Source: Akkermansia sp. | GTDB taxonomy: Bacteria > Verrucomicrobiota > Verrucomicrobiia > Verrucomicrobiales > Akkermansiaceae | DNA length: 11,278 nt | Direction: 5' to 3' | Assembly (NCBI GenBank): GCA_017379255.1 | Contig: JAFNWZ010000275.1 | Span: 1 to 11,278 of the forward strand | In this document: positions 2,903 to 7,572 of the stretch, piece after piece | Layout of the letters: every line of letters begins with the position of its first letter | Position numbering within the stretch: the stretch's first letter is position 1 | Notes under the pieces: model-generated | Database searches by the model: none | Told to the model about the DNA's origin: nothing | What the model saw: the letters and a program-made list of their open reading frames with translations, nothing else | Position numbers and translations under genes: made by a program

Positions 2903-3469
2903 TCACAGAATGTTGTGAATGCCCAGTGAAATCAGCAGCACACCTGCCGCCGTTTCCAGCCAGCGGGTGGGCAGGTGGTGCAGCAGGCGGGCGCTGTGAA
3001 AGGCGGCCATGGCGCAGGCAAAGGTGATGCCGCCGATGATGCTGACGGCCAGCCCCAGCTGCAGCTGCGGCCCGCCTATGTTGCCCAGTGCCATGCAGGC
3101 ACCCACGGCCAGTGCGTCAATGCTGGTGGCAATACCTACGAGAATCAGCCCACTGATGCCCAGCGCCGTGGAGGATGCGGTTTCTTCCTCCTCACCGCCG
3201 CTCCAGGCTTTGTAAATGATGCTGCCGCCCAGAGTGGCAAAAACGGCCAGCACAATCCACGGCGCCCAGAGGCTGACCACCGTGCGCAGCGCCTCGCCGC
3301 CCCAGTATCCCAGCAGCGGCATGCCTGCCTGGAACGCCCCCACGCTGAGCGCCAGCCAGAAGGCCGCCAGGCCGCGTTCCTGCCGCAGCACCAGCCCGTA
3401 GGAAAACGCATATACCGTGGCATCCACGGCCAGCGCCAGGGCGATGAGTGTGATTTCGAGGTAATTCAT
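2903..3469 (-). CDS. mntP: manganese efflux pump MntP
   Basis: Inner-membrane exporter protecting against excess Mn(II). The 188 residues form about six hydrophobic helices in two related halves. Each half carries the conserved acidic site: Asp16 in ALAVDATVYAF and Asp118 in GIATSIDALAVG. Both fall at the numbering known for the E. coli protein. A charged cytoplasmic loop (GGEEEE, 91-96) separates the halves. It is the last gene of the four-gene minus-strand operon. Its ATG lies nine bases after the stop of the CHASE2-like gene and has no Shine-Dalgarno sequence, so translation is probably coupled. I see no Mn-sensing (yybP-ykoY) riboswitch or dedicated promoter before it, so Mn-specific control at this gene is not evident. 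No terminator follows; read-through would be antisense to the SMUG1 gene. Confidence 0.93.
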   Translation of the reverse strand: MNYLEITLIALALAVDATVYAFSYGLVLRQERGLAAFWLALSVGAFQAGMPLLGYWGGEALRTVVSLWAPWIVLAVFATLGGSIIYKAWSGGEEEETASSTALGISGLILVGIATSIDALAVGACMALGNIGGPQLQLGLAVSIIGGITFACAMAAFHSARLLHHLPTRWLETAAGVLLISLGIHNIL

Positions 3470-6393: not shown

Positions 6394-6834
6394 ATGGATT
6401 TCCGCATTATTGCTGCTGCTAAACCCTCTATCGCCTATACCCGGGATGGCGTTAAATTCTTTGAGGAACGCTTGCGCCCGCTCGGGCGTGTGGAGCTGCG
6501 TTATGTGAAGGCCGGTGATTCGGAATCTGTCTCCGCCCGCTTGCTGGAGGCCAGTGAAGGGTGCATCCGCATTGCCATGGATGAACGCGGCGAAAACTGG
6601 ACCACCCGGGAACTGGAAAAACGCGTGCGCCGCTGGCAACTCCAGGCGGTCAAGCATGTGGCTTTCCTCATCGGCGCGGCAGATGGGCATACCCAGGCGC
6701 TGCGTGATGCCTGCGACCATGTGTTGTGCCTGGGCAGGCACACCATGCAGCACGAGCTGGCCCTCGTGGTGCTGCTGGAGCAGATTTACCGTGTCCATAC
6801 CCTGCTGGCCGGCAGCCCCTACCACAGGGATTGA
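6394..6834 (+). CDS. rlmH: 23S rRNA (pseudouridine1915-N3)-methyltransferase RlmH
   Basis: SPOUT-class methyltransferase that uses S-adenosylmethionine to methylate pseudouridine 1915 in helix 69 of 23S rRNA on the assembled 70S ribosome. The 146-residue product has [14 protein letters not shown] (61-74), the counterpart of the family's LDERGKxWSSxx[13 protein letters not shown] (89-99) is the cofactor loop, here GAADGH rather than the usual GGxx[22 protein letters not shown] (113-133) forms the trefoil knot. The protein ends SPYHRD, matching the conserved family C-terminus, so the 3' end is intact. The start at 6394 rests on the promoter position and on [10 protein letters not shown] matching the family N-terminus. 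The stop codon TGA is also the first three bases of the 38-base repeat at 6832-6869. Confidence 0.93.
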
Positions 6835-6869
6835 GGAATGCAGATTTCAAAACGCAGAATGCAGAATGA
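6832..6869 (+). repeat. 38-base 3'-end repeat, left arm
   Basis: Begins at the rlmH stop codon with TGAGGAATGCAGATTTCA and ends GCAGAATGCAGAATGA. It matches the reverse complement of 7130-7167 at 37 of 38 positions. It contains the short internal direct repeat GCAGAATGCAGAATG. Confidence 0.95.
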
Positions 6870-6877
6870 TTAGTTCG

Positions 6878-6899
6878 CATGCTGCCTCCCGGCAGCATG
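6878..6899 (+). other. GCTGCC hairpin, left copy
   Basis: CATGCTGCC, loop TCCC, GGCAGCATG: a perfect 9-base-pair stem. It sits between the 38-base repeat and the terminator. The mirrored copy at 7099-7120 differs in its outer pairs on both sides at once, so the pairing is kept. Confidence 0.85.
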
Positions 6900-6910
6900 G
6901 GGGAAAGAGA

Positions 6911-6939
6911 AAAAAGCCTGAGATGTTCTCAGGCTTTTT
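6911..6939 (+). terminator. terminator after rlmH
   Basis: AAAAAGCCTGAGA, loop TGT, TCTCAGGCTTTTT: a 13-base-pair stem, including the A/T pairs, with a T-tract. It is about 80 bases downstream of the rlmH stop codon and has the same GCCTGAG core as the pgi terminator. Confidence 0.88.
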
Positions 6940-7059
6940 GGTTATGGCCGCCCGGGGTAGTGAGAATCTGCGCATTCCTTTTTGCGATGTGCAGCACACG
7001 CATGAGTTTAAGGGACAAGCTCATCCATAGCATGTCAACCAGGCATTAAAACAGATATC

Positions 7060-7090
7060 AAAAAAGCCTGAGAGTATCTCAGGCTTTTTT
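7060..7090 (-). terminator. terminator after the GH73-like gene
   Basis: AAAAAAGCCTGAGA, loop GTA, TCTCAGGCTTTTTT. It is symmetric and works on paper in both directions, and it lies 75 bases beyond the GH73-like stop codon. On the + strand, 7053-7072 matches 1706-1725 at the pgi terminator in 19 of 20 bases. The unique stretch 6940-7052 between the two terminators contains a degenerate third copy of the repeat start (6962-6978) and no gene I can support. Confidence 0.88.
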
Positions 7091-7098
7091 TCTCACTC

Positions 7099-7120
7099 CC
7101 AGCTGCCGGGAGGCAGCTGG
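7099..7120 (-). other. GCTGCC hairpin, right copy
   Basis: CCAGCTGCC, a four-base loop, GGCAGCTGG: a perfect 9-base-pair stem and the mirrored counterpart of 6878-6899. The shared 16-base core is GCTGCCTCCCGGCAGC read from the minus strand. The outer pairs differ but are compensated. Confidence 0.85.
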
Positions 7121-7129
7121 CAAATTCAG

Positions 7130-7167
7130 TCATTCTGCATTCTGCGTTCTGAAATCTGCATTCCTCA
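7130..7167 (-). repeat. 38-base 3'-end repeat, right arm
   Basis: Read on the minus strand it starts with the stop codon TGA of the GH73-like gene and repeats the sequence of 6832-6869 with one change (A to G at position 19). The trinucleotide GAT lies just outside both arms (6829-6831 and 7168-7170), too short to prove a target duplication. Confidence 0.95.
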
Positions 7168-7572
7168 GATTTGCCCCCACTTGCCATCGTTGATGTGCTT
7201 CATGTAGGCCGTGACGCCGCGCACCCATTTCTGGTGGCTGGCGCAGTAGACGCGGCTGATCTGCACCAGGGTCACGCGTCCCTTGGCGCGGTACTTGCCA
7301 AGCAATTCGGCAAGGTGTTCCACGCAGGCTTCCTTGGATTCGAAGCGGCGCTGGCCGTTGCGGCCCATGATGCCCGCCAGGTTGTTCTTGCGGCGTGCGG
7401 CGCTTGACGTGGCATTGGCAGATTCGTGCCGGATGATGGCCTCCATCATCACGGGGTCCACACCATGCTTGGCGGCGGCCTCCCTGATAGCGGGGCGCAG
7501 CGCAGCAACCAGCTCGGCTTGCGCTGTGAGCACCATCATCAGGCCTGTCAGTATGGTCAGAGCAACTCTCAT
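7165..7572 (-). CDS. small secreted GH73-like N-acetylglucosaminidase
   Basis: Predicted peptidoglycan-cleaving enzyme of 135 residues exported to the periplasm. Residues 1-19 form a signal peptide (basic MR, hydrophobic core, AQA before the likely cut). The mature part of about 116 residues follows a glucosaminidase (GH73) or lysozyme-like pattern. MMEAIIRHESANATSSAA (42-59) carries the candidate catalytic Glu50. KNNLAGIMG (62-70) matches the family's NNLFGIKG loop. RRFESKEACVEHLAELL (75-91) matches the usual FRxYxSxxES segment. It has no wall-binding repeats and is near the minimum length for the fold. It has its own promoter and is not part of the menD operon. The stop codon lies inside the 38-base repeat shared with rlmH. 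A soluble lytic transglycosylase-like role is an alternative. Confidence 0.75.
   Translation of the reverse strand: MRVALTILTGLMMVLTAQAELVAALRPAIREAAAKHGVDPVMMEAIIRHESANATSSAARRKNNLAGIMGRNGQRRFESKEACVEHLAELLGKYRAKGRVTLVQISRVYCASHQKWVRGVTAYMKHINDGKWGQI

Follow-up and report, generated by a model that had tools for sequence, protein, structure and literature searches.

Why do two convergent genes of an Akkermansia genome end in mirror images of each other? The window, by which we mean the whole 11,278-nt stretch of DNA that was analysed, carries rlmH and a glucosaminidase-domain gene facing each other across a 330-nt gap, and this gap consists of two inverted modules, each with the order arm, GC hairpin and terminator-like hairpin, around a 120-nt centre:

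6394–6834, plus strand: rlmH (SPOUT methyltransferase; PF02590, E 8e-33), the left host gene, stop TGA at 6832–6834
6832–6869, plus strand: left arm, a GAATGCA-type word array that starts at the rlmH stop; 37/38 complementary to 7130–7167
6878–6899, plus strand: left GC hairpin CATGCTGCC-TCCC-GGCAGCATG, read from the sequence and present in the centroid fold
6911–6939, no strand: left terminator-like hairpin AAAAAGCCTGAGA-TGT-TCTCAGGCTTTTT, with A/T tails on either side (terminator scan)
6940–7059, no strand: centre of 120 nt without a long ORF, similar only to the sister locus L030 among the loci compared
7060–7090, no strand: right terminator-like hairpin, loop TAC on the minus strand (terminator scan)
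7099–7120, minus strand: right GC hairpin CCAGCTGCC-GGGA-GGCAGCTGG, loop GGGA on the plus and TCCC on the minus strand, present in the fold
7130–7167, minus strand: right arm, which starts at the stop of the minus-strand gene
7165–7572, minus strand: glucosaminidase-domain (GH73-like) gene (PF01832, E 1.6e-9), the right host gene, stop TGA at 7165–7167

The initial annotation had described inverted 38-nt arms, GC hairpins and two terminators filling this gap, arms that begin at both stop codons and terminator loops that differ between the two sides, and we confirmed each of these points. The symmetry is far above chance: positions 6800–7200 contain 53 12-mers whose reverse complement also lies in the region, a number that never exceeded 7 when the sequence was shuffled 200 times by mononucleotides. 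Folding of all 336 nt gives −200.7 kcal/mol, with a z-score of −19.4. The terminator scan found two terminator-like hairpins, both reported on the minus strand, against 0.6 expected. A stretch at 6962–6978, which had been read as a third copy, resembles the end of an arm with a 2-nt insertion and carries no weight. Searching Rfam with positions 6700–7300 gave nothing near a gathering score, only four weak Thr_leader matches. Elsewhere in the window, a hairpin resembling the element's terminators lies at 1713–1748, directly after an ORF at 149–1693.

The arm is built of the heptamer word GAATGCA. When the repeat was searched for in the window's own genome (2.5 Mb) and in related genomes, second copies were found. 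With at most one mismatch, the 14-mer CAGAATGCAGAATG had 26 matches on 14 contigs of the own genome, overlaps counted, of which four single matches look like chance by eye; a reversed control pattern of the 14-mer had none there. A 33-nt piece of the left arm recurs exactly on contig C85. The copies in this genome are built in several ways, namely as arm-hairpin-arm (C85), as arm-hairpin-terminator-hairpin-arm (C423 and C407), as single modules (C126) and as one full copy that holds a 137-aa ORF (C299); terminator-less units occur at C85, L119 and L363. We collected 27 paired GAATGCA cassettes, which include several orthologous junctions and are not all independent. Their interiors measure 38–40 nt (3 cassettes), 105–112 nt (11), 140 nt (2), 251–262 nt (3, the window included) or, with an S23 gene, 546–585 nt (4), and the four others hold RRM_1, Mntp, an ORF without a Pfam match and a broken S23. 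Only S23 recurs as a protein inside them. A GC hairpin follows the array in 51 of 71 cases, compared with 20.5% of random stretches, with the loop TCCC in 32 and TTCC in 9. Read on the other strand, these 41 of 51 loops are GGGA or GGAA, which is of the GNRA type. We also noticed that a relative of the window's Mntp gene (2906–3469) is enclosed by GAATGCA arms in genome G034 (L340, 643–1206), beside a rubrerythrin gene.

The ORF in the full copy on C299 encodes an S23/four-helix-bundle protein, of the family that takes its name from 23S rRNA intervening sequences (PF05635, 69.3 bits with a cut-off of 33.8; TIGR02436, 86.4 with a cut-off of 24) with a relative in the PDB, 2rld (E 5.9e-20), and S23-loaded copies are present after rlmH in relatives as well as at other junctions. 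The nearest rlmH loci belong to Akkermansia bins of animal origin, among them water buffalo, sheep and goat. The 8-mer GAATGCAG or its complement lies in the first 400 nt downstream of rlmH in six of 41 Akkermansia-group loci: L030 (genome G036), L031 (G040), L032 (G034), L034, L035 (G043) and L037 (G026). The sister locus, L030, is empty like the window. In L032, an S23 gene antisense to rlmH lies between arms that adjoin rlmH and the glucosaminidase gene, and in L035 (the same locus as L357) an S23 gene in the sense of rlmH lies between both arms, with a different gene beyond the far arm. A broken S23 follows rlmH in L037; L031 holds a 246-aa ORF there that matched no Pfam family. In L034 and L040 the two genes are still paired, 45 and 98 nt apart; the former locus is a remnant and the latter has lost the words. 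The comparison of regions downstream of rlmH that the initial annotation had envisaged yielded S23-loaded and remnant forms. In the window itself, no ORF of at least 80 aa, and so no S23 gene, lies between the arms, and no S23 remnant or similarity to S23 cargo was found in the centre against the loci compared. The window element is tied to S23 by its word, which it shares with the full S23 copy in its own genome (C299) and with those after rlmH (L032 and L035). As the centre retains no trace of S23, loss of cargo at this site is deduced from the relatives, and the cargo may instead have been gained in those relatives. The centre differs from that of L030 at 1 of 120 positions whereas rlmH differs at 39 of 438 nt, which makes the local history a mosaic.

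We asked how general the association between S23 and word arrays is. The own genome has seven S23 genes; by eye, each is flanked by inverted arrays, and the short word repeated in them differs from gene to gene: GATATCGTC, GTGAAAA, GTGAAAT, GAGAAATTCTC, GATGAAAT, AATAGGGAATA and GAATGCA. Across the genus, PF05635 was found in 55 of 76 genomes. To score the flanks, we counted 9-mers in the 400 nt before an S23 gene whose reverse complement occurs in the 400 nt after it; the AATAGGGAATA locus of the own genome (L109) has 7 and the loci L103–L108 have at least 10. The sample comprised 119 ORFs in 118 of 121 loci, 112 of them with at least 250 nt of flank on both sides and 102 after removal of near-identical ones; these were the higher-scoring among the matches listed, plus the rlmH loci, rather than a random draw. 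At least five such 9-mers were present in 82 of the 102 loci, 20 falling under this threshold, and at least ten in 71. Mismatched flanks taken from other S23 loci reached five in 6.5% and ten in 2.0% of 2019 pairs, and control windows elsewhere in Akkermansia rlmH loci did so in 40 and 3 of 863, respectively. Repeats in the same orientation are frequent as well (33 of the 102 S23 loci at ten or more, with a similar mean); since words recur on both strands, 'inverted' applies to the layout as a whole and not to every word.

Word type matches S23 type. For 78 of the 102 loci there were enough shared words to compare S23 identity with word overlap, and over 2873 pairs scored as non-orthologous the correlation was 0.35, a value reached in none of 2000 permutations (maximum 0.10); the orthology filter drops some valid pairs, such as L035/L105, which lie at different sites and were flagged as orthologous. 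Word overlap of at least 0.3 was seen in 14 of 22 pairs with 70–85% S23 identity, compared with 3 of 1712 whose identity was below 40%. Among themselves, the three S23 proteins of the GAATGCA type, which come from two junctions, are 83–88% identical, and they are at most 57% identical to those of the other loci tested; an S23 from G020:C37 is 64% identical to the GAATGCA type over 111 aa. A cognate S23 (at least 82% identity) was found in four of 76 genomes, which have 36, 13, 8 and 4 exact word matches, the last with a broken S23 only. The remaining 72 comprise 66 genomes without an exact word and 6 with one to four. The word reaches its highest counts in the three genomes whose matching S23 is intact. 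The exception is G042, a genome that is 71% complete: it has four exact words, and a cognate S23 was not found in it. A different S23, with different words, occupies the C299 junction in G035 and G042, and in G000 and G033 the array on the right of this junction stops where the adjacent gene has its stop codon. At the same junction, G033 and G026 also have a Y1_Tnp gene with its own hairpins nested in an ATTTCGA array (L416, 876–1322; L419, 861–1307).

Beyond the genus, 181 of 240 genomes of the phylum had a PF05635 match. Among the 28 top-scoring loci, again a small sample (28 of 29 were used), 19 had at least five flank 9-mers, compared with 30 of 756 controls, and only 9 had at least ten. 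On plasmids, likewise a small sample (12 of 25 matches examined, 11 used), nine of 11 loci had at least five, compared with 10 of 110 controls; those that passed come from Cyanobacteria, Bacteroidota and Spirochaetota, and the two failures are one cyanobacterial and one Chloroflexota locus. In six of the 12 plasmid stretches, the four-helix-bundle gene or match lies between genes of a defence locus: L277 and L281 (cas2/cas1), L285 (csx2/cas1), L279 (drmD/pglX), L283 (hsdS/hsdR) and L284 (helicase/N-6 methylase). A figure legend in PMC10910872 lists '23S rRNA IVP' among CRISPR-linked proteins. In the open-access PMC papers searched, we found no description of S23 genes flanked by inverted word arrays.

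Recent spread is indicated by G043, which has ten near-identical empty copies of approximately 200 nt. Their ends are sharp and their flanks for the most part unrelated, those on the left of L351 and L356 being alike; five of the ten copies touch a contig end. For L355, the one copy tried, neither a clean empty site nor a target-site duplication was found, the search returning a relative's left flank plus a nested repeat. Around L355 (1256–1316 and 1502–1550) and in L379, L383 and L385, ends of approximately 50–60 nt that are 92–100% alike between genomes flank variable interiors made of word arrays or REP-like hairpins, apparently a second carrier element. How copies become empty is suggested by a junction between rubrerythrin and ParA genes (named by eye). 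The sister genome G036 has a broken S23 between arms there, and in the own genome the same arms are fused through one hairpin, at an 8-nt direct repeat, TGCGCGGC, that is present in both hairpins. Hairpin and terminator are both palindromes, so that the two inverted copies of either one double as direct repeats, and deletion between these yields just the builds observed. The direction would be loss rather than gain.

The initial annotation had further proposed that the module might be a miniature inverted-repeat element that supplies stop and terminator, with TGA as part of the repeat. TGA does open both arms in the window, but the stop codons in relatives vary among TGA, TAG and TAA. We tabulated the position of arrays relative to stop codons, leaving out five loci with single weak matches judged to be chance and nine arrays near the start of a locus, and counting the G043 family apart. 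Of 66 arrays, which include several at orthologous junctions, 43 begin between −35 and +20 nt relative to the stop of a reading frame 90 codons or more in length, compared with 434 of 3300 random positions (13%). In the recently spread G043 family, however, only two of 13 sides do so. We rejected stop adjacency as an insertion rule on this ground: it is more readily explained by where copies survive than by a target rule that supplies stops, and it is common, not universal. Well supported in the proposal is a miniature inverted-repeat element that brings terminators to a 3′ end, given the dispersed copies, the recent family in a relative and the modules at stops; a stop-supplying role is disfavoured. 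The early reading was supported in part; hidden from it was the central observation, that S23 genes are carried by the fuller copies.

We consider it probable, at roughly 0.7, that the window holds an old copy, devoid of cargo, of a REPIN-like mobile element associated with S23, and that this copy has been kept as a two-way terminator. A full element runs from a word array through a hairpin and a terminator to the S23 gene, and from there through a second terminator and hairpin to the inverted word array. S23, an Avd-related four-helix bundle, would recognize the word or hairpin that belongs to it, in the form of either DNA or RNA, and would be needed in trans for the spread of both full and empty copies. 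Cargo would be deleted between palindromes, turning the full form into arm-hairpin-terminator-hairpin-arm and then into arm-hairpin-arm, and recombination between the arms could flip the cargo. Empty copies stranded at 3′ ends would persist there because they terminate transcription from both sides. We infer that S23 drives mobility. S23 is not known to be catalytically active, so cutting and joining of the DNA would fall to another enzyme. Also against this reading, some cassettes hold unrelated genes (Mntp, RRM_1 and the ORF without a Pfam match). A route through Avd and a reverse transcriptase is disfavoured here, since no PF00078 match was found in the own genome, which is about 90% complete. 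Our confidence in the S23-element reading is slightly lowered by a GAATGTA array near one Y1_Tnp gene and by the different far neighbour in L035.

The same structure could have been retained mainly as a functional 3′-UTR or terminator cassette, exapted from whatever origin. The stop adjacency of the arrays, the two intact terminator-like hairpins of the window and the folding of each single module better than its own shuffles (z −3.8 and −4.7) are in keeping with this. Against it, GAATGCAG or its complement follows rlmH in only six of 41 relatives, and units lacking a terminator exist; we regard it as rather unlikely to be the main reason for the module. Far less probable is a purely local event, in which inverted duplication or quasipalindrome template switching built a symmetric bidirectional terminator. 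A mid-arm slot reads CGC, GTC, GTC, TGC and CGC in five species, with the left arm equal to the right arm within each, as arm-to-arm correction would give; since few sites in only five species are involved, such concerted evolution between arms is no more than suggested. This homogenization is the only part of the local explanation that survives. Many other junctions of the own and related genomes have the arm, the hairpin and the terminator too, with ten near-identical copies in G043, and these dispersed copies contradict the rest, including the view that the arms are a local inversion duplication only.

A third explanation accepts mobility and makes S23 a mere passenger of an ordinary MITE or REPIN moved by a Y1 (RAYT/IS200-like) or other transposase. 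The own genome has three Y1_Tnp genes (L243, L244 and L245, on C418, C455 and C16), which by eye lie beside inverted hairpin repeats of their own and so form a REP/RAYT-like set alongside the S23 sets. Approximately 400 nt from the Y1_Tnp gene of L245 there is a related array, GTAGAATGTAGAATTCTGAATGTAGAATG, a GAATGTA word array at 88–116; at the C299 junction of G033 and G026, a Y1_Tnp gene sits inside a different word array; and the copy L355 lies inside longer ends that are repeated in other genomes. Against this, the two exact GAATGCA words tested were absent from all three Y1_Tnp loci of the own genome, no transposase was recognized by eye among ORFs of at least 80 aa in the 27 paired cassettes, and word type tracks S23 type. 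The exact words lend no support to a RAYT as the mover of GAATGCA, which stays a rival through the related array at L245, and we judge a transposase-driven origin with S23 as passenger to be unlikely.

We compared the preferred reading, a cargo-less copy of an S23-associated element, with known systems. According to passages of PMC3116915, REPINs, which are REP doublets linked to a REP-associated tyrosine transposase (RAYT), are short palindrome-bearing repeats in inverted pairs with non-autonomous extragenic copies, each repeat type being tied to its own protein gene, and in the repeats, the copies and the tie to a protein gene our element is alike; REPs are described in a part of PMC3733652 as lying mostly downstream of coding regions. 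It is unlike REPIN/RAYT in that the linked protein is S23/four-helix bundle and not a Y1 transposase, and in that the arms of the window element are tandem heptamer words with a separate hairpin and terminator. The GTAG or CGTC tag given in that part of PMC3733652, or its complement, is absent by eye from both window modules, and exact GAATGCA words did not flank a matching Y1 transposase at the three Y1_Tnp loci. As protein and tags differ, we rejected membership, although the element may work like a REPIN functionally. It also resembles intervening sequences of 23S rRNA with an S23 ORF, such as that of Coxiella, in which, according to PMC4990558, the ORF lies within terminal inverted repeats that form a long stem, and which is called a selfish element, with a mobile origin discussed. 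Unlike these, the Akkermansia element has terminators, element-specific word arrays and many empty copies, and membership was rejected because the window copy lies between two protein genes and not in a 23S rRNA helix. Its size range and form are those that passages of PMC3116915 give for MITEs (about 100–400 bp, inverted ends, empty dispersed copies), and multiple dispersed copies with shared ends are present in the own genome, with ten in G043; no cognate transposase was recognized in the cassettes examined. Finally, Avd of diversity-generating retroelements resembles PF05635, as stated in an excerpt of PMC10053308, a likeness that suggests nucleic-acid handling by S23; unlike in those retroelements, no reverse transcriptase was found in the own genome. 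For the window feature we use the term S23-associated inverted word-array element, of which it is an empty copy.

More tentatively, and with the odds somewhat against so broad a claim, S23 proteins, familiar as orphan ORF products of 23S rRNA intervening sequences, may be the cognate proteins of phylum-spanning REPIN-like elements with protein-specific words and nested palindromes, which would empty themselves by palindrome-mediated deletion and reshape 3′ ends as they do so; the intervening sequences of rRNA would then be the same elements, stranded. The link between S23 type and repeat word provides a testable handle on what each S23 binds, and one kind of element could explain nested-palindrome intergenic repeats, rRNA intervening sequences and the small-scale remodelling of 3′ ends.
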